NCBI RefSeq assembly: GCF_008831285.2
Contig: NC_045147.1
Coordinates: 15,788,854-15,852,853, forward strand
DNA length: 64,000 bases
Reading direction: 5' to 3'
Source: Nymphaea colorata
Taxonomy: Eukaryota; Streptophyta; Magnoliopsida; Nymphaeales; Nymphaeaceae
In this document: positions 210-62,399 of the stretch, piece after piece
Layout of the letters: each line of letters starts with the position of its first letter
Position numbering within the stretch: position 1 is the first letter of the stretch
Made by a program: the position numbers and the translations under genes
Notes under the pieces: model-generated
The model's database searches: none
Told to the model about the DNA's origin: nothing
Seen by the model: the letters and a program-made list of their open reading frames with translations, nothing else

Positions 210-227
210 GTACTACATATTACCAGC

Positions 228-6687
<6,460 letters not shown>

Positions 6688-19230: not shown

Positions 19231-19977
19231 TCAGCTCTTCTTACCTAGCGTGTGTTTGTTATTGTGCATCCACACCTTGAGCACATGCCTCTTCACGCCT
19301 GTCTCCATGCAGAACTGCTGCACCGTCGCCTCATCGTGCTTCTGAATCCTCCAGCCCAACCTCTCCGCGAAGGCCAGCATCTTCTCCTTCTGATCCTGCG
19401 TGAATTTGGTCCGGAACCTCTTTTTTGGAAGGCCGGCGCTCCCACCGGTACCCCCGGAAACGTCGTCCTGATCATCCCTAGCATGGCCGGCGGCAGCCGC
19501 AGCAGCAGCTGTACCACCTCCCCCTCCAGAAGTCGACGGCAGAGCCAACGGCGTCCGATGGGGCATGTGCAGGTACGCCGTCGGCGTCGGTGGCGGCCTG
19601 TAATAAGGAGAGAACTGCGAGCTGTGGTGGTGGAACACAGCCGCCACCTCCCCCTCCGTCTCCTTGCGGTGGAAGTTCCGGTGGCAGTTGCACGCCGCAC
19701 ATTTGAGGGCGTCCAGCGTTCCCTCCTCCCCGGCGGGCATGAACTCCCCGCACCCATCCACGGCGTGGCCCCCGATGCTCACCGCGTGGTTCTTGAGGCA
19801 CTCGCGGTAGCGACTCACCGGCTTCTTCCCCGTCTCACCACTCATCTTTACCCTCGCAGTCACCGGCGCCGGCGCGTTCCCTAGGGATTCATAACTCCCT
19901 GCTGCCGGCAAGCTGATCTCCTCCTCCTCCTCCTCCTCCTCCTCCTCTTCCTGATCTTCCTGCTCTTCGAATTCCAT
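19231..19977 (-). CDS. zinc-finger homeodomain (ZHD) transcription factor, intronless
   Basis: 248 residues. A Glu-rich N-terminus ([10 protein letters not shown] plus a poly-Glu run) precedes the ZF-HD dimerisation zinc finger at about residues 56-105 ([20 protein letters not shown], then [16 protein letters not shown]). A His/Pro and poly-Gly/Ala linker follows. A C-terminal homeodomain at about 184-243 has [13 protein letters not shown] and the recognition helix [11 protein letters not shown]; the MHNNK replaces the usual QNRR and is diagnostic of plant ZHDs. The zinc finger mediates homo- and heterodimers and binding of MIF mini-proteins; the protein acts in the nucleus. The start at 19977 is the first true ATG in frame. 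Upstream in-frame sequence lacks an ATG. The family is normally intronless, as here. The subtype (ZHD1-4-like) is not certain. Confidence 0.95.
19918..19951 (-). repeat. trinucleotide repeat encoding poly-Glu in the ZHD protein
   Basis: On the plus strand a run of CTC units, read on the minus strand as GAG, encodes about eleven consecutive Glu residues near the N-terminus of the ZHD factor. It is a likely site of length variation. Confidence 0.85.
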
Positions 19978-20849
19978 TGCTTGCCTCCGGCTTCCCTTCT
20001 CACTCTCTCGACCTCCTGCTCCTTGGTTTCCACCGGCCCTCTTTCCCCTACCAATCAACAACAGCCACCTCCATCACCTTCCTCCTCCTCGCCGGCTCCC
20101 CACTATTCATTTCCCGGCGGGGAAGATTAAGGTGGTGGTTTCGAACAAGATAAGATGAAACAATTGAGGGTGGTGCTCATGGATTGTTGCAATCCCCCGT
20201 CTAGCTAAGCTAATGGGCCAGCTAAAATACAAATGATAAAAACTTTCCTCCTCCCTTCTCCCTCTATATTTTATTACACAGAAACTAAAAAGAAGACAAT
20301 GATAATATTTTTATCCCTTTTTTATATTTGTCATCATTTTAGTGATAAAATAACAAAAGAGTTCATTGTTTTCTTATACTTTTTCCGTTACTTAAAAACC
20401 CCCCACAGACACCACCGGCTACCGCCGGTAGTCTCCTTCTTTTTCCCCGCTTTGGGCTCCTCCCCACATCCCTCTCATTCACCTCCTGTTGCAGAGGATT
20501 CGTTTCGTTTCTCTCTCCTTTTTTCCCACCCGTGCATCCAATGGCACCACTGCAGCAGATGGGTAAAGGGTAAAAAATTTAGCAGATCCAAGACCACCCA
20601 TTTCTGGTTTTCACCATTCTTTTTTAACCTCAGTCAGTATGAGTACGACGGCGAAAGAGAGAAGCAGCAGGAGTAGCAGAAGTAGTAGTAGCAGGAGGAG
20701 GAGACGGGGAGCAGCAACGACTCTCAGAAGCAATCTGGAAATTTTGTTTGCTTGACCGTCAGGAAGGAAGAGGAAGGAGGGCCCCAAGAGAGAGAGAGGA
20801 GAGTATGGATGAGATCAGAGCGGCCGGAGAAGTTTGAAGAGGACTCTGT

Positions 20850-34508: not shown

Positions 34509-35615
34509 TTACCAAGGGCTGCCCTCCAAGGCTCTCACCTTGAGCCTCAGAGACCGCAGGTACTGAATCGTCTCGTCCAGGACGGTGGTGGCGTCCTTCC
34601 GAGCTCCCCCTGGAAGAATGCTGCGAAGTATGCCCACCGTCTTCCTTATCTTCTCCCTCCTAATCCTCTTTGCTGCAAATGATTCTCCCGTAGCGAAGGT
34701 GATGTTTTTCTTGGGCATTGAATGTTGAGAAGGCCTTGCGGAGCAGGACTCGGAATCACCTACGCAAGACGAATCTGTTGATTTCGGGGGCTTGTAGGAG
34801 CTTGCTGTATCTGCCATCATCGGTTCCTCATTTGCCCCTTCTTCCTCAACTTTATCGAGCTTCCTCCTCTTCAACTGAGAAGTTGAGCTAGTGAACTCCT
34901 CGTCCCTCTCTTTCCTAGGGTGTCCAGAAACATAGATGGGGGAATGGCCTGTGCTTGCTACTTCATCGTCTTCATCTTCTGAACACAAGAGAGCTTCGAG
35001 ATCTTCTGTATTTTCATGCATCTCATCGGCCTCATTGCCAGCAGAGACTTTACTTTCTCCCCAACAAGTGTCGTCGGATGTATAATTAGCATACCCAGGC
35101 ACGTTGGGCTTGGCAACAGGGCATGTGGGGAGGCTGCAGGATTTTTGGTTAAAATGTTCACGGGTAAGAGGTGGAGACATAGAGTTGATGGAACTGATAA
35201 ACATGCTTCTTTGGCTTCCTGATTGATCGAACACGACGAATTTCTTTTGTGAAGTTGCTGGTGCCAACAAAGGTGCGCCTAAATCAAGCTTTTTGAGTTG
35301 TAAATGGCAATCATAATGGGCAGCAGCTTGGACCCTCTGGCAACCAAATGCTGTTGGAGACTGAAGGGACTGGTTATGGCAATATTTCTGCCAAGGTTGA
35401 AACTGCTCATTTAGAAGTTGACAAGCATCTGCCGCAAATCCATTAATTGGGAGTGGTGGTCGACTCAAATTACAGTAATGGCCGCCATCACCACCAGGAA
35501 AGGTAGTAGCATCAGCCAATCCAAGACCTTGATCAGATGATAAGCCACCATAATTCAATGGAGATAGCTGCAATGGGAAGTGTCCATGTTTTCCCGAACA
35601 GTAGTCCTTTCCCAT
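34509..35615 (-). CDS. SAC51/SACL-class atypical bHLH transcription factor
   Basis: 368 residues from an ATG at 35615 (MGKDYCSGKHG); the coding part is a single exon. A long, mostly disordered N-terminus includes an acidic block (EDLEALLCSEDEDDE) and a basic KRRKLD stretch. The C-terminal bHLH spans about residues 314-365 (AAKRIRREKIRKTVGILRSI, loop, DATTVLDETIQYLRSL). The basic region lacks the His-Glu-Arg pattern needed for E-box contact, typical of the SACL group (Arabidopsis SAC51/bHLH142, bHLH143-145). These proteins promote or balance xylem differentiation downstream of thermospermine made by ACL5, and heterodimerise with LHW. The identification is supported strongly by the family's conserved uORF at 35882-36139. 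An in-frame extension upstream of 35615 lies in an intron (35650-35745) and was rejected. Confidence 0.95.
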   Translation of the reverse strand: MGKDYCSGKHGHFPLQLSPLNYGGLSSDQGLGLADATTFPGGDGGHYCNLSRPPLPINGFAADACQLLNEQFQPWQKYCHNQSLQSPTAFGCQRVQAAAHYDCHLQLKKLDLGAPLLAPATSQKKFVVFDQSGSQRSMFISSINSMSPPLTREHFNQKSCSLPTCPVAKPNVPGYANYTSDDTCWGESKVSAGNEADEMHENTEDLEALLCSEDEDDEVASTGHSPIYVSGHPRKERDEEFTSSTSQLKRRKLDKVEEEGANEEPMMADTASSYKPPKSTDSSCVGDSESCSARPSQHSMPKKNITFATGESFAAKRIRREKIRKTVGILRSILPGGARKDATTVLDETIQYLRSLRLKVRALEGSPW

Positions 35616-35649: not shown

Positions 35650-35745
35650 CTGCATGGCACAATCAGACGAGACGTACGAAGAACGGAAAGATCAAAAACA
35701 CATCGTGGAGAACCTCACGAAGGATGAAGAAAAGAAAAATCTTAC
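35650..35745 (-). other. leader intron between the conserved uORF and the bHLH start
   Basis: On the minus strand the donor GTAAGA is at 35745-35740 and the acceptor CATGCAG ends at 35650. Its removal leaves about 170 nt of spliced leader between the uORF stop and the bHLH ATG. A minimal ATG-CAA-TAA uORF also lies in this spacer. Confidence 0.65.
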
Positions 35746-35881
35746 CGTTTTGAAGGGACTGGAACCGGTTGATCTGCCTAAAATTCTTAGAACTCCAGCC
35801 TAATAGAGCTCCTTGGAGGTGCGTGGATTCTTTATTGCATGTGCAGACGGGGAAACAGATAATGCTGGATGATCAGCTTTT

Positions 35882-36139
35882 CTACGTCACAGGTTTCAGC
35901 AAATGGCGGAAATACTCGGCCTTCGGATATGAAGAAACAGAAATATGAATATATCAATATCAAAACCATCCACTTGTATCAAGAAAAAATCTTAAGAGAA
36001 AAAAATGGGAATATACCTGGCAGTCTTGAAGAGGTTGAAAACAAGCTATTACTCTAACAATGATGGTTGCACACCCCTGAATCCCACTTTCGTGTTTCAA
36101 TGCTCGAAATCTAGTTTGGCCTGCTGCTTGGCACACCAT
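35882..36139 (-). CDS. conserved-peptide uORF of the SAC51/SACL mRNA, 53 residues, two exons
   Basis: ATG at 36139. Exon parts are 36017-36139 (41 codons) and 35882-35920 (12 codons plus TAG), separated by a 96-nt GT-AG intron (35921-36016, donor GTATAT). The peptide begins MVCQAAGQTRFRALKHE, continues TIIVRVIACFQPLQDC and ends AEYFRHLLKPVT. Its length (53) and sequence agree with the uORF I remember from Arabidopsis SAC51 and bHLH143 mRNAs. There the peptide represses main-ORF translation, and thermospermine relieves the repression; a stop mutation in the uORF (sac51-d) suppresses the acl5 dwarf. It is intact, so the control is probably functional. It is too small and too interrupted to appear as an ordinary ORF. 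Confidence 0.95.
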
Positions 36140-39100
36140 AACTTCTCCACACTCAAAACTGCCAACTGTCTACCCGTCAACTATCTAAGCACCCAAGCAA
36201 ACAGAAAACTAGCTAAACCAGAGAAACTATTAGAAGACGACAACCACGACCAAAAATTTCTCAAAAGTGGCGTTTAAATGGAACTTTGCAAAGAAAATTA
36301 TGTGGAAACCAAGGCGTAGGTGAACAAGGTTTTAACCAGCAGGCGATATCAGGCGTCCACCAAGGTCTAGGAATATGCAGATGACAGCTTTAGCTTACTC
36401 GGAGGAAAAAACAAGGAGAAGCAAGAAGGTCGGTAGCCATTGGACAAGAAAACTTGAAGACGGGATCAGCCAAAACAGCTAAATCCTACAGTATAACTTT
36501 GCAGTATAAATTCAAGGATATAACTTTCCTAGCCACATCCAGGGATAAGCAAAACCACCACATGCTGCTCTATTTCATCAATTAGCAATGGTGGATTCCT
36601 TGCAAGAATAGCACTCCACTTCAAGTGGCAGCAGATATTCTACTTCTTACGCCAAGAAAGGTAAACGTGTCACCAGAGTGCATGTATGCCAGTAAGGTTG
36701 TATTCCTGCACACCCCAGTAAAAAGAGGCTCAGAGGCTGAAGAGAGAAAAAACAGCTAACAACAAGAGAAACACATCACGCTGCCATTGCATGACATTAT
36801 CCTGCTGGAAAGGCTCCATGGCCTCAGTTGAAACCAATGCTTAACTTTGTGAAACTTATTCAAATCAAATGAAATTTTGTGCAGAATAAAAGGAAAAATA
36901 AAACAGAGAAAGTAACAACCAAGGAATATATGTCAGGATGAAAATGGCAGTTGAGCTCAAAGCTTCTAAGTTCTAACTGAGGATTCAGATTCAGGAGGGG
37001 CATCAGGGATGAGCACGACGACCTTGAAGATCTTAACACAAGTGTGTACAGAAACCTAACCCAACCTTAGCCGACTAATTCTATGCTCGTAATACAAACA
37101 TATTCACATATTAAGTACCAGATGAAGCTACAGCCTACATTGGTCCCTCGTCATCGTTCTCAAAGCCCAAGTTGATATGGACAATCCACCTTGAGATGAT
37201 CGGAAGATGGGACATGAGCTGCATTGCAGCTCTTCTGTACAACAGATGCCCTCTAAGAATTAACGCAGGAACGCAAAACGATCAATGAGATTTGACAGAA
37301 CAACTAGGACTGATTTGAAAGCGTCCTCAGCTTTGCTTAGTCTTCCATGATCACATCGAACAACTAGGTCCTCATGCTTACAGATATAACGTCCTCACTT
37401 CTACAAGAAAAATGAGCAAGGAATCAGATAAAGGAACGGATTCTTCCGCTTGTCCTCGGATGAATATACCTGAAGTAGAAGTCTCGACAGTAAGCAGACT
37501 AAGAAGATTGAGATCCTAAATGCAGGACAAACGGAAAAGATACAACACAAATAAGCCTAACGATTTTTTTTAAAAAAAAAAAAACCTTTGGAAACAGCAG
37601 AACTCGATCAATCATCAAGAAAGGAAGCATTTTTTCATGGCGTTAAAAGACAAATGACAACAGAACCTGCCAAATTAAGGATCCGAAAGATACATCAGAA
37701 AGAAAAGGGAAGGGCCGGAGGTTTTGAAAAGTGTGAAAATGCAGTAATGCACCTAACATAAATAGAAAAGAACATATCACGTACGTGAAGAAAGGCTCAA
37801 ATGCATGCCACAAGTCGAAGCTCCCATTTACGATTCTCAACTATCAAACACAAAAGGTCTGTAATCAACAGGAGAAAAAAAATAACGCCGTTGGATTGGG
37901 ATTGTCAGGGAACACAAAAGGATAAACGGACAACTGTGAACAGTGAGGCAGTAAGAAAATGAAATGATCGAGTTAACTACTTTCACTAAAGCCTGAAATC
38001 TGAAAGCAACCCAAGACACCCAAGCGATTCGAGCATCACGCATCCATCCGTTGCATATCGATGCGAAAGGAGCAAGAATGTTATACGTGCGTAAAATCAA
38101 GATCATTGAAATGTAACAATCCCCAAAACTTGGACAGAAGAAAGACGTTCTGAGAGTTTTATTAGGAAGGGAGCAATATCAGTCGACGACCAGGACGTTA
38201 TGGAACACGTTCTAGACCTTCTCCTCCAAAACAGATCTCAAAACTTAAAACGGCAGCAACGCCCCATGGTGGAGTCTAAACATAAAACAATCAAATAGAT
38301 TGTCCCTCAAAGAAGACAGTGTACAATGGTACCATGCGGTCAGGAAAAGGAGATTTGAACGTACACGAGAGGAAGACAACGTATGAGGCTGACTATATTC
38401 AAGGAGAATAACTAATAGCAAAACTGAAAGCTTTCGTCTCCCCCACCAAGAAGAAGTGTAGGAAACGCAAACGGTAGCTTACGAAACAGAGACTCAGGCG
38501 ATCCAGATGCACGAAGACAAACGAAAAAAGAACGTAAACGAGAGAAACAGAGGTTCTTAGCCACAAAACTGGTAACAGTGAACCGCATAAATCCCCTCTA
38601 ATGCGCATAAATTTTAAGAAGTGGAGAGGAAATAAAGGAAAAATAGGAATAGATTCACAGGCACAGCAGTGGGGAGCCTGTCCATCAATAAGCAAGGCTG
38701 GAAAGCAGAAAATCATGTAGGAAGCAGGCAGAGCACCAAGGATCAAGCTTTGCGTAAGACAAACAAGAGAAGCGCTGAGGAACAGCTTGGACAAACTAGG
38801 CCTCAACAATTTTCCAGGGAAGTATGCACCAACCAAACCTTGATCCAACTGCCCATATATGGAAAAGAATCCAGCAGCAAGCAAAGAAAAGAGAAATTAA
38901 AAACCAGTCGTCGGCCTAATAAACATTAAAGACCTAAGAATCTCACCAGTTTAGAGTGCAAAAGCATAAGGAAATTTTTCAGCAGGCAAACCATTCAGAC
39001 GAAGGGGAGACGGGAAGGCACCACCTTGGAATTGAAAAGAAAGGGAAAGGCGATCAAAAGGAGAAAAAAAAAACTAGAAAAAAGAAAACGCTTTGAGTGC

Positions 39101-39595
39101 AAGCTGCAGCTATCCCACACTGACAAAAGTCTGTCTAGATCTCTGCTTTTAAAAAGGTTAGACACTACCAACGGCGCAAAACAGCAAAAACGGGAAAAAG
39201 TGGGAAACGAAAGAGAAGACGAAGAAAAAAAAAGAGAAGCAAGTTGAAAGAAAAAAGTGGAAAGAGAAGATCCATTTCAGTATACGAGTGAGATACGTCG
39301 GGTGGTCCATGGAAGAGGAGGGCCATAAGCAACAGTCCAGAAAGACCCACCAAGAAAACCAGAACTGAAGAGTGAGGAAGCACAATAACAAAGCATTACT
39401 GGCGGCAGCAGAGAAAGAAGTAACCCCAATCTTTAGCTGGAGAAAGGAAAAGCCCCGACTAAGAACCGAACAGGAGCGGGGAAAGGAGAGCTGAGATCAT
39501 AACTGAACCAAACTCATGCTCCCCACATTCAGACATTACAGAAAGACGAGAACGGAACCCGTCTCTCACATGAAGCAGCGTTGCATATCCTTACC
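36140..39595 (-). other. probable 5' leader introns and exons of the SACL gene
   Basis: The mRNA must extend beyond the uORF ATG. A good donor on the minus strand (CGGCTG followed by GTAAGG, at 39594) lies after a CT-rich stretch at 39596-39660 that looks like a first leader exon. The 3.4 kb between would then be mainly intron. It holds hydrophobic low-complexity frames such as 38399-38884 (minus) that I do not believe. Exon boundaries here are inferred, not shown. Confidence 0.35.
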
Positions 39596-39665
39596 AGCCG
39601 AAGAATCTGACTGTGAGGCTACGGAGAGAGAGGGAATGGACGAAGGACGTCGTTGGTGCAGCTTT
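39596..39665 (-). promoter_or_regulatory. candidate first leader exon / transcription start of the SACL gene
   Basis: On the minus strand this reads ...CCATTCCCTCTCTCTCCGTAGCC... and ends at the donor described for the leader intron. CT-rich starts of this kind are common in plants. Transcription start and TATA box are not resolved. Confidence 0.3.
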
Positions 39666-39979
39666 TAGATTTTCGGAGTGTGGAGAGGGTGAAGCAGAGG
39701 AGAGGGAGTACAAAAGGAAGGGGGAGCGGGTTGCCCGGAGAAGAAGGGAAGAAAAGGAGGGGCAGTAGCAAAATGACGCTCCTGTCCTCCACCCAGAGTG
39801 TCGGCGTCTCCTTTTCTTGCAGAACCCTGCGCTCGACCTGCTCCACCCTCAACTCACAGCCACCACTGGTCCACTGCTACCTACTACTTCCATCAGACCA
39901 CCTGCGTCCGATTTTCATCTAGAAAGATTTTAGGAATTTTAGATGTGGAATACATTAAGGAAGAAAATTGCTATGCTTA

Positions 39980-54099: not shown

Positions 54100-54236
54100 A
54101 GCTCTATATTATAGAGCAGGCAAAGAGAGCCTCCACAGTTGGTTTCACAGTCTCTCCCTCTCTCTATCTCCGTCTCTGTCTCTCTATCTCTGTGTAATTG
54201 CTGCTCTGTCTGTGTGTCTGTCAAGAAGAAGCCGCC
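54100..54236 (+). promoter_or_regulatory. core promoter and leader of the ERF gene
   Basis: A TATATTATAG stretch at about 54106-54115 is a candidate TATA box. A CT-rich leader (54146-54193) follows, and the start context gccgccATGG at 54231-54240 is near ideal. The placement of the transcription start at about 54140 is inferred. Confidence 0.4.
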
Positions 54237-54791
54237 ATGGTAAGGCACGGGGGAGCCCCTCAAGGGAGGAAGCACACCAAGTACAAGGGCGTAAGGATGA
54301 GGAGCTGGGGTTCTTGGGTGTCGGAAATCAGAGCTCCCCATCAGAAAACGAGGATTTGGTTGGGTTCTTACGCCACGCCGGAAGCCGCCGCCAGAGCCTA
54401 CGACGCCGCGCTTCTCTGCCTTAAGGGCGCCACCGCGTCCTTCAACTTTCCCGAGTCCGCCGCCCGGCGCAGTGTCCCTGACACGCTCCTGTCTCCTAAG
54501 TCTATTCAGAGGGTTGCCGCGGCCGCTGCCGCAGCTTCAGACGCGTCGTGTTCGTTCGCCGACGACGCGTCCTCGTCACAATCGTCCACCATGACACCGC
54601 AGCCTCCGCCGCGACCAACGCCGCCGGCCACCTTCGCTTCGTCGTCTTCGGATCTTGGGGATGGAGGGATCGACGCGTGGGTCGATGACTATGATTTAGA
54701 GTCGGCCAAGTGTTTGGATCACTTCTTTGCTTCGCCCATAGTGGAAGAAGTCGATGAAGTTGCAGACATCAGTTTGTGGAGCTTCAGTTGA
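54237..54791 (+). CDS. AP2/ERF transcription factor, ERF012/013/014 (DREB group II) type, intronless
   Basis: 184 residues. One AP2/ERF domain at about residues 15-72 reads [20 protein letters not shown], then [20 protein letters not shown], then FNFP. The valine of the DREB pair (V14 of the domain) is kept, while the second position (E19) is Ala, as I recall for the Arabidopsis DREB26/ERF012-014 subgroup. An Ala/Ser-rich middle (AAAAAAAS...) and an acidic C-terminus follow, ending [10 protein letters not shown], a family-type LWSF tail and probable activation region. There is no EAR motif. It is a nuclear factor binding GCC/DRE-type elements; its biological role here is unknown. The gene is GC-rich relative to its AT-rich surroundings. 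The start at 54237 is the first ATG and has an excellent context. Confidence 0.95.
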
Positions 54792-60196: not shown

Positions 60197-62399
60197 CTAG
60201 TACGGGAACTTCTGCAAGTGGCTCTGAGGTGTTTGGGCGAAAAAGCTCTGTGAATCAGGTGATATGTCAAACGTCTTAGAAGAACATATCCCTGGGCTGT
60301 CCATGAGCTGGAACTCAGGAAAATGATTGCCCCATATATCATAAACAAGACCTTCATTCACAGCCAATCCATCATTTTCATTTTCCTGTTTATTTATTCT
60401 TTCTTTCCCTAGCCTTGACCCTGGAGCTCGTGCATGTGGAGCAACACCAGAAGGCTGTGATAAACATGGGGAAGACGGTGATGATGAAAAAGTGGAAGGA
60501 TTGCACGCTCTTCGCTCATCATGTTTTCCACTAGTTGGGAATGTCGCAGAGGGCAATAAAACAGGACGACCACTCTTTTTCCTTGACATACTCAAGCAAG
60601 GCAGCTCAGGACTGGTATTTTCTGTGATTTGCTTGGATGGTAACACAGTCTGTCCACAAAACTTGTCTGGCTTTGGTTCTATGTTACCAGAATCTGCGAG
60701 TGATGTCTCGGTGAGAGCATAAGCAGGCATCTCAGCTGCACGCACATCAAGGCTAGATGACCCTTTAATAAGCGGGCTACCTGGACAAGATGATGTAAAA
60801 GGTGCAAGTGGAGACACCGGTGAAGATGGAGTGGAGTTGCCACTCTGGCTACTAGAAACCTCCTGTTTTCCTGCTAGTGCAGCGCCTCTTCTTTTCCTTC
60901 GCTTGCCTCTTCCTGTCTCTGTCTTAACTGTAAGGTTACCCTTGGGTGATGATTCAGCTAACCCTGAGCTCTCCACTATGCATTTTGATTTGCTTGTTGA
61001 ATTCGATGAGGATGACCGAGTATTATTGTCATTATCACAGTAGGACGGTAATGAAAAAGAGCTCACAATGTTATCCTGTATCCATCTCACATTTTGAAAG
61101 GATACAGTTTCAGACTCTTGGCTTTTATATGTGTCGTCGTGATGGTCAAACTCTATAGTTGAAGCAGGTGGGTTGGTTAACCTGAGAATCAGAGAAAGGA
61201 GTCAGCTTGGGGCAGGCAATGCTACACAAGTGTCTGTGTGACAGAGAGAAAGTGTGTTCTGTGTGTGAGAAAGAGTGTGTTCTGTGTGTGAGAGAGAGGG
61301 AGAACCTGAAACTCCTCTGACCCTGATGTGAATCAGCAGCTTTACCAATCTTGGTAAGTGAAGAAATAGCCCGTTTTGCATACTTGCCCAAGCATTCATC
61401 CCCTTCTGAGGTAGTAGCTTGTGGAACGATGCGGAAGAAGACCAAGAAGGTTGCGGAGGCTGCAACCAGAACCACAAGAGACACCTTTTGCAAAAGCATC
61501 CAGAAGAACGATCTTCTACAAAGGCTAAGCATATAAGCAGGAAAGGTTGCTCTCATGGGGATCACAAGGACTCCAGTTGAATAAGCAAGTTCAAGGTCCC
61601 TGTGAACCACTGATGCAGAAAAGTCTGTCTGATATGAAACAAGAAGCCTCATTGTTTCGCCAGGCTGAAGAGTGAAACCCTCACATGTGTCTACTGTAAA
61701 TCCATCTGATCCACAGCCAGTTCCTGAAATATCAATCCGTGTAACTTCCAGTGGCATATCTCCTGCATTTTTTGCATATAATACCTTCAGAAGTGGCCTT
61801 GCACAAGTGGCACTGGTGGATTTCATGTCAAGCAATTTTTCAGAAGGTGACACATTAAGAGAAAGAGGATACCCAAAGTCAAACTCCAGGCTCTGAACAG
61901 GTTTTGATCCTTCAAGCAATACAAGGGAAGCTAACCCTCCAGAACCATGTAATGGAAGCCATTCAGTCCCCGTGAGGTTGTTTCTAATCAGCACAGAGCT
62001 TCTCCAGACACAATGGTTTGATGGTCGAAATGAAATAGGCCCAAGAAGTGCACTTTCATTAGGATAAACATATGCTTCACTTATCCCAACCTCAGATATG
62101 AAAAAACCATCACTTTTTGTTGAAGCTTCATATTTGGTTGAACTACTTGCCAAGGCATGTTGTAATAGGTCATCAATGCCTGTGCACTGATCAATGATTA
62201 CTCCTGAGTTCAACACAAGCTGCATAACAACAGGCTTTTGACTTGGATTTTTCACAGTGATCCATTTTGAACAGTGTGCTCCCACATGGACAATTGGAAA
62301 CAAAATTTCAGTATCCCCGAGGACAGACATGCCTATTGCTGTTCTTTGTGATATCCAGTTGTTTAAAATACATTCATCTGCTTTTGCAATATCTGAGCC
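60197..62399 (-). CDS. TMEM131-like transmembrane protein, C-terminal exons (partial)
   Basis: Two exons lie in the window: 61306-62399 and 60197-61181, joined in frame (phase 2) across a 124-nt intron. Together they give the last 692 residues. The first exon starts at an acceptor ending at 62400, so 5' exons lie to the right, probably beyond the window. Early on is the TMEM131-family block (LGDTEILFPIVHVG, then SKWITVKNPS), an Ig-like extracellular/luminal region. One membrane segment follows (about SLVVLVAASATFLVFF), then a long Ser/Pro-rich cytoplasmic tail with a KRRKRRG basic patch, ending HLQKFPY. Animal TMEM131 recruits procollagen for secretion; the role of the plant protein is not known. 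Full-length plant members are about 1,200-1,300 residues, so roughly half is here. Confidence 0.88.
61231..61297. repeat. short tandem repeat inside the 124-nt TMEM131-like intron
   Basis: Two and a half units of a roughly 25-bp sequence, agagaaagtgtgttctgtgtgtg, fill much of the intron next to its donor. This may affect splicing efficiency. Confidence 0.8.

Follow-up and report, generated by a model that had tools for sequence, protein, structure and literature searches.

A putative intron-split SAC51-family upstream open reading frame in the leader of a SACL-like bHLH gene of Nymphaea colorata

A bHLH gene on the minus strand of the Nymphaea colorata genome is preceded by a short peptide encoded in two pieces, which raises the questions of whether this peptide is a genuine regulatory upstream open reading frame (uORF) and whether it would respond to thermospermine as AtSAC51 does. 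We analysed a window of 64,000 nt (C10:15788854-15852853) against the background of the whole genome (407.8 Mb, 783 contigs). Judged by its sequence, the window uORF is highly likely to be a SAC51-family conserved-peptide uORF (HG15.3, AtSAC51 uORF4) of a SACL bHLH gene, and as such would repress the main open reading frame (mORF). The features of the leader, the mORF and a sister locus on contig C2 are collected in Table 1.

The uORF starts at ATG 36139 and, translated across the predicted splice, comprises 162 nt, equivalent to 53 residues and a stop codon, with exon a contributing MVCQAAGQTRFRALKHESGIQGCATIIVRVIACFQPLQDCQ and exon b AEYFRHLLKPVT. The intron of 96 nt (36016-35921), delimited in a splice-site scan as GTATATTC...ATCCGAAG, cuts the uORF at Gln41/Ala42. 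Splice sites were scored with a rough weight matrix; on this approximate scale the donor at 36016 ranks first among the 11 GTs in the frame and, set against every GT on the minus strand of the window, falls in the 99.25th percentile. The acceptor reaches the 93.8th percentile, and the pair ranks second among 204 GT-AG pairs (70-400 nt, donor in the uORF frame). The first-pass annotation had described a two-exon, 53-residue minus-strand peptide with a 96-nt intron at this codon boundary. Both elements are borne out, with exact coordinates of 36139-36017 and 35920-35882, a strong predicted donor, and the same design at C2, where the intron recurs at the same position and phase.

Table 1. Coordinates of the predicted features of the window leader, its mORF and the C2 sister locus.
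Feature	Position	Strand	Description
Untranslated exon 1 (tentative)	~39760-39595	-	approximate boundaries
First leader intron (tentative)	37401..39594	-	donor CTG/GTAAGG, 99.7th percentile; acceptor TTCTTGTAG, 98.7th percentile
HG15.1 uORF candidate (weak)	36730..36792	-	20 aa, hydrophobic end; in-frame ATG 36819 would give 29 aa
uORF exon a	36017..36139	-	codons 1-41, MVCQ...LQDCQ; translation
Alternative 59-aa frame upon intron retention	35960..36139	-	from ORF list; without AEYFRHLLKPVT
uORF intron (predicted)	35921..36016	-	96 nt, phase 0, GT-AG; splice-site scan and same position in C2 sister
uORF exon b	35882..35920	-	AEYFRHLLKPVT and TAG; bulk of conserved C-terminal block
Tiny uORF	35832..35840	-	MQ and stop; place of AtSAC51 6-aa fifth uORF, by positional analogy only
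Leader intron between uORF and mORF (predicted)	35650..35745	-	donor ACG/GTAAGA, 99.5th percentile; acceptor ATGCAG, 83.9th percentile
mORF	34509..35615	-	368-aa SAC51-family bHLH, single exon; Pfam PF23173
bHLH_SAC51 domain	34539..34691	-	residues 309-359; Pfam
C2 uORF (L007/L008; locus C2:1020115-1018766)	C2:1020115-1019725	-	two exons, predicted splice
C2 mORF	C2:1019552-1018766	-	open frame of 262 codons; bHLH, SACL-like

The window mORF scores 29.6 bits against the Pfam model PF23173 (bHLH_SAC51), 1.1 bits above the cut-off of 28.5. Together with the 53-aa length of the uORF, this agrees with the earlier placement of a SAC51-class uORF upstream of a SACL bHLH. PF23173 has five matches in the N. 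colorata genome at E <= 0.01, of which the window mORF and locus L003 on contig C8 (31.8 bits) exceed the cut-off; the C2 locus is not among these five. Loci L003-L006 were rejected as SACL genes, as their open frames read as other bHLH groups (presumably HECATE, among others), although L003 passes PF23173. Exact uORF words were not found in the 3.1-kb loci of L003-L006; a uORF could lie farther upstream of these stretches. Elsewhere in the window, we identified an open frame with a partial protein kinase domain (210-1082, plus strand; PF00069, 1.3e-43), a zinc-finger homeodomain gene (19231-20073, minus strand; PF04770 ZF-HD_dimer), an AP2-domain open frame (54198-54791, plus strand; PF00847) and a TMEM131-like open frame (61146-62399, minus strand; PF24501, PF24499), the last adjoined by a frame at 60197-61201 with no Pfam match.

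A search of the N. colorata genome with the spliced peptide (E <= 10) returned two places, the window itself and C2:1019728-1019796, the latter a weak match (E 0.894) with one internal stop. The C2 exon b region reads TTTTTTCACAG/GCTGAATATTTCCGTCATTTGCTTAAGCCGGTTACGTAG, in which the same AEYFRHLLKPVT and stop codon as in the window follow a good acceptor, and C2 exon a ends in ...MIVIVNACFQSLQICQ, followed by a 241-nt intron that begins CAG/GTAATG. The intron position and phase 0 are therefore common to both uORFs, with intron lengths of 241 nt at C2 versus 96 nt in the window. Spliced in this way, the C2 uORF comprises 49 residues from the ATG at C2:1020115, or 91 if translation began at the in-frame ATG 1020241. 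Of the last 28 residues, 23 are identical between the window and C2 peptides, including all of the last 14, CQAEYFRHLLKPVT. A near-invariant stretch of 14 C-terminal residues marks the HG15.3 uORFs; the window stretch, 14/14 identical to C2, may also be identical to that of Arabidopsis and rice, and the window peptide presumably agrees in its letters with the Arabidopsis SAC51-family uORF. The C2 uORF also contains an inner in-frame Met that opens a 28-aa inner uORF; its ATG aligns with ATC (Ile26) in the window, so that of the two loci C2 alone has the inner Met.

Run over 19 kb by tblastn, with neither composition correction nor low-complexity masking, the window mORF aligns with the C2 mORF at 3e-9, a score to which an acidic stretch contributes. 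By Pfam, it barely passes PF00010 (20.8 versus a cut-off of 20.7) and falls under the PF23173 cut-off (14.7 versus 28.5). We take the C2 gene as a SACL gene on the combination of its uORF and bHLH frame. When the C2 uORF was used as a query against the same genome, the window exon was not among the results; diverged copies can thus escape such searches, and the count of at least two SACL loci in the genome is a lower bound. Near the C2 SACL locus, open frames at C2:1028424-1026870 (minus strand, L009) resemble cytochrome P450 by eye. A pattern search of viral contigs (5 matches), GTDB genome contigs (76 matches) and plasmids yielded no confirmed relatives, as expected of collections without plants, and uORF peptide strings looked up in literature text had no occurrence there.

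The predicted intron at 35745-35650 takes out the ATGs at 35703 and 35655. The second of these lies inside the ATGCAG acceptor; were the intron retained, it would begin a 40-aa ORF that runs across the mORF start. No uORF overlaps the mORF in the spliced leader model, although this model is tentative for exon 1 and for where exon 2 begins. Farther upstream, the minus strand is T-rich over 37500-39750. HG15.1 uORFs are defined by a length of 18-27 aa and a C-terminus with 8/9 hydrophobic residues; the putative HG15.1 uORF has 7/9 by our own residue set, a composition reached by ORFs of 18-29 aa in 36% of shuffles, and tblastn against the C2 stretch gave no convincing counterpart (best E 0.13-0.25). 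It equals AtSAC51 uORF1 in length, at 20 aa (PMC4308196).

An open frame in a long leader may arise by chance: when the sequence 37400-35616 was shuffled 1000 times with dinucleotide frequencies kept, 64.3% of the versions contained an ORF of 59 aa or longer, so that the 59-aa open frame in itself is no argument for a uORF. The high frequency of long ORFs in shuffled leaders (64%) would suit the view that the peptide is a chance frame joined by wishful splicing, but the identical tail and same splice position at C2, ahead of a related bHLH frame, make this explanation vanishingly improbable. Within exon b, 7 of the 36 coding bases (12 codons) differ between the window and C2, all at third positions and all synonymous, with a probability of 7.5e-6 under random placement that is optimistic because the C2 locus was chosen by peptide similarity; that choice has no bearing on the evidence from where the intron lies and from the gene that follows the C2 uORF. 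In the last 16 codons of exon a, 11 residues are identical to C2, a level reached in none of 5000 shuffles. Given the identical tail, the shared intron phase and the synonymous differences, we regard the splice and the peptide as very probably genuine and subject to purifying selection. The peptide might still be a relic kept by descent in a leader bypassed by downstream transcription starts, and the modelled leader is indeed long and rich in ATGs; however, the 7/7 synonymous differences in the tail exon imply that selection acted for some or all of the period after the two loci split, and we consider a relic highly improbable. Judged from sequence, the window uORF belongs to a known uORF family, is intact and has been maintained by selection.

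The intron that splits this selected uORF had been singled out as a special feature that could yield isoforms escaping control. Such a status is weakened by the intron at the same place in C2 and the three introns in the AtSAC51 leader. The same phase-0 position with different lengths at the two loci is most simply explained by an intron older than the window/C2 split, and the intron is probably ancestral, as AtSAC51 has three leader introns and exons 2 and 3 carry its uORFs; AtSAC51 uORF4 itself would then presumably span these two exons. If the intron were a regulated switch, retention would produce a 59-aa peptide without LLKPVT and free the mORF. In keeping with this, the retained reading stops at 35960, before the conserved block, and the retained C2 frame likewise replaces that block. 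Against it, any in-frame intron would have the same effect, the donor is strong, the retained 59-aa uORF would still be long and decay-prone, and an intron shared in place by the two loci points to simple inheritance. A regulated switch is thus quite improbable. A limited survey of the literature, mostly of records and passages, returned no paper that treats this intron as regulatory. We favour an inherited intron within a selected uORF.

By analogy with Arabidopsis work, we propose that ribosomes would start at AUG 36139, which has G at both -3 and +4 (the mORF ATG has C at -3), and make the 53-residue peptide, whose C-terminal block CQAEYFRHLLKPVT would hinder them at or near termination and keep them from the mORF. 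With 136 nt between the uORF stop and the following predicted exon junction, the mRNA should in addition be a likely substrate of nonsense-mediated decay. The outcome would be a low level of the bHLH protein, with a presumed role in vascular tissue; in this family, the conserved peptide frame is known as a brake in xylem development. For the Arabidopsis family, two studies report that the peptide represses the mORF and that premature stops in it suppress acl5 in the case of SAC51 and partly in that of SACL2 (PMC4308196, PMC12436307). SAC51-family mRNAs are also among the reported decay targets (PMC4308196), which fits the position of the stop 136 nt ahead of the predicted junction.

The first-pass annotation had invoked the thermospermine relief known in the family. 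The translated window uORF contains no Met after position 1, and SACL2-type leaders without an inner uORF did not respond (PMC6504692), both of which speak against relief of the window copy. In the same study, the responding leaders (AtSAC51, BoSACL1, OsSACL3A, OsSACL3C and GmSACL3) hold the conserved uORF together with an inner in-frame uORF6, the leaders of OsSACL2, PtSACL2, GmSACL2 and BoSACL3 gave no response, and AtSACL2 and AtSACL3 are cited as unresponsive in earlier work (PMC6504692). As the window uORF lacks an inner Met, the gene is more likely SACL2-like on this feature, and the absence of an inner AUG tips our expectation slightly towards a weak or absent thermospermine response, as in SACL2. 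Alternatively, the window leader could respond as AtSAC51 does, as a canonical switch that thermospermine relieves: the C-terminal block common to uORF4 and uORF6 is intact, and an AtSAC51 leader with uORF6 disrupted kept its response, albeit a smaller one (PMC6504692). This reading is tenable but somewhat doubtful, as the SACL2-type leaders of rice, poplar and soybean, and of Arabidopsis in earlier work, were unresponsive without an inner uORF (PMC6504692), which the window copy lacks as well. The published record is itself mixed: the SACL3-type mRNAs tested have another inner uORF that need not accompany a response, BoSACL3 being unresponsive (PMC6504692); SACL3, earlier called unresponsive, was counted among the relieved mRNAs in 2025 (PMC12436307); and OsSACL2 mRNA rose with thermospermine (PMC6724145).

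With a weak or absent response expected of the window copy, the C2 sister with its inner AUG would be the likelier responsive one; its inner Met may correspond either to uORF6 or to the other SACL3-type inner uORF. Because ATC or ATG at a single uORF codon decides the presence of the inner uORF, the two genes could differ in their thermospermine response. That they form a natural unresponsive/responsive pair, and that an old split between hormone-gated and ungated SACL genes hangs on one inner start codon, is a speculative extension that we regard as rather unlikely. As a family member, the window uORF is a matter of routine annotation, and annotating intron-split uORFs is useful because plain ORF scans miss them. 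PMC6504692 leaves open which uORF feature underlies the thermospermine response of SAC51-family mRNAs, and two sister leaders in one genome, with a common C-terminal block and intron position and a different inner AUG, provide a test case.

In its evolutionary setting, the uORF has been placed as a gain in the ancestral vascular-plant SACL mRNA (review, PMC13415961), and Marchantia MpBHLH42 is described as having no such conserved uORF (PMC11020214). HG15.3 uORFs span 43-54 aa, a range that includes the 53-aa window uORF, with 13 of 14 C-terminal positions completely conserved (PMC2075485). Among the known systems, the SACL2-type uORFs (AtSACL2, OsSACL2, PtSACL2, GmSACL2) share with the window the conserved uORF without an extra inner uORF (PMC6504692). 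AtSAC51 differs in having the inner Met of uORF6, which the window uORF lacks. AtSAC51 (At5g64340) has five uORFs of 20, 16, 48, 53 and 6 aa, of which uORF4 (HG15.3) has the same 53 aa as the window uORF, and the sac51-d mutation cuts it to three residues (PMC4308196); this product is consistent with codon 4 being a single change away from a stop, and codon 4 of the window uORF is CAA. AtSAC51 has four exons, its three introns all lie in the leader and its coding sequence lies wholly in exon 4 (PMC4308196), with the uORFs on exons 2 and 3 (PMC6504692). The window gene matches this plan, with leader introns, uORFs on leader exons and the coding sequence in one exon. The SAC51-family uORF (HG15.3) is thus a known element, of which the window copy looks like an ordinary further member.
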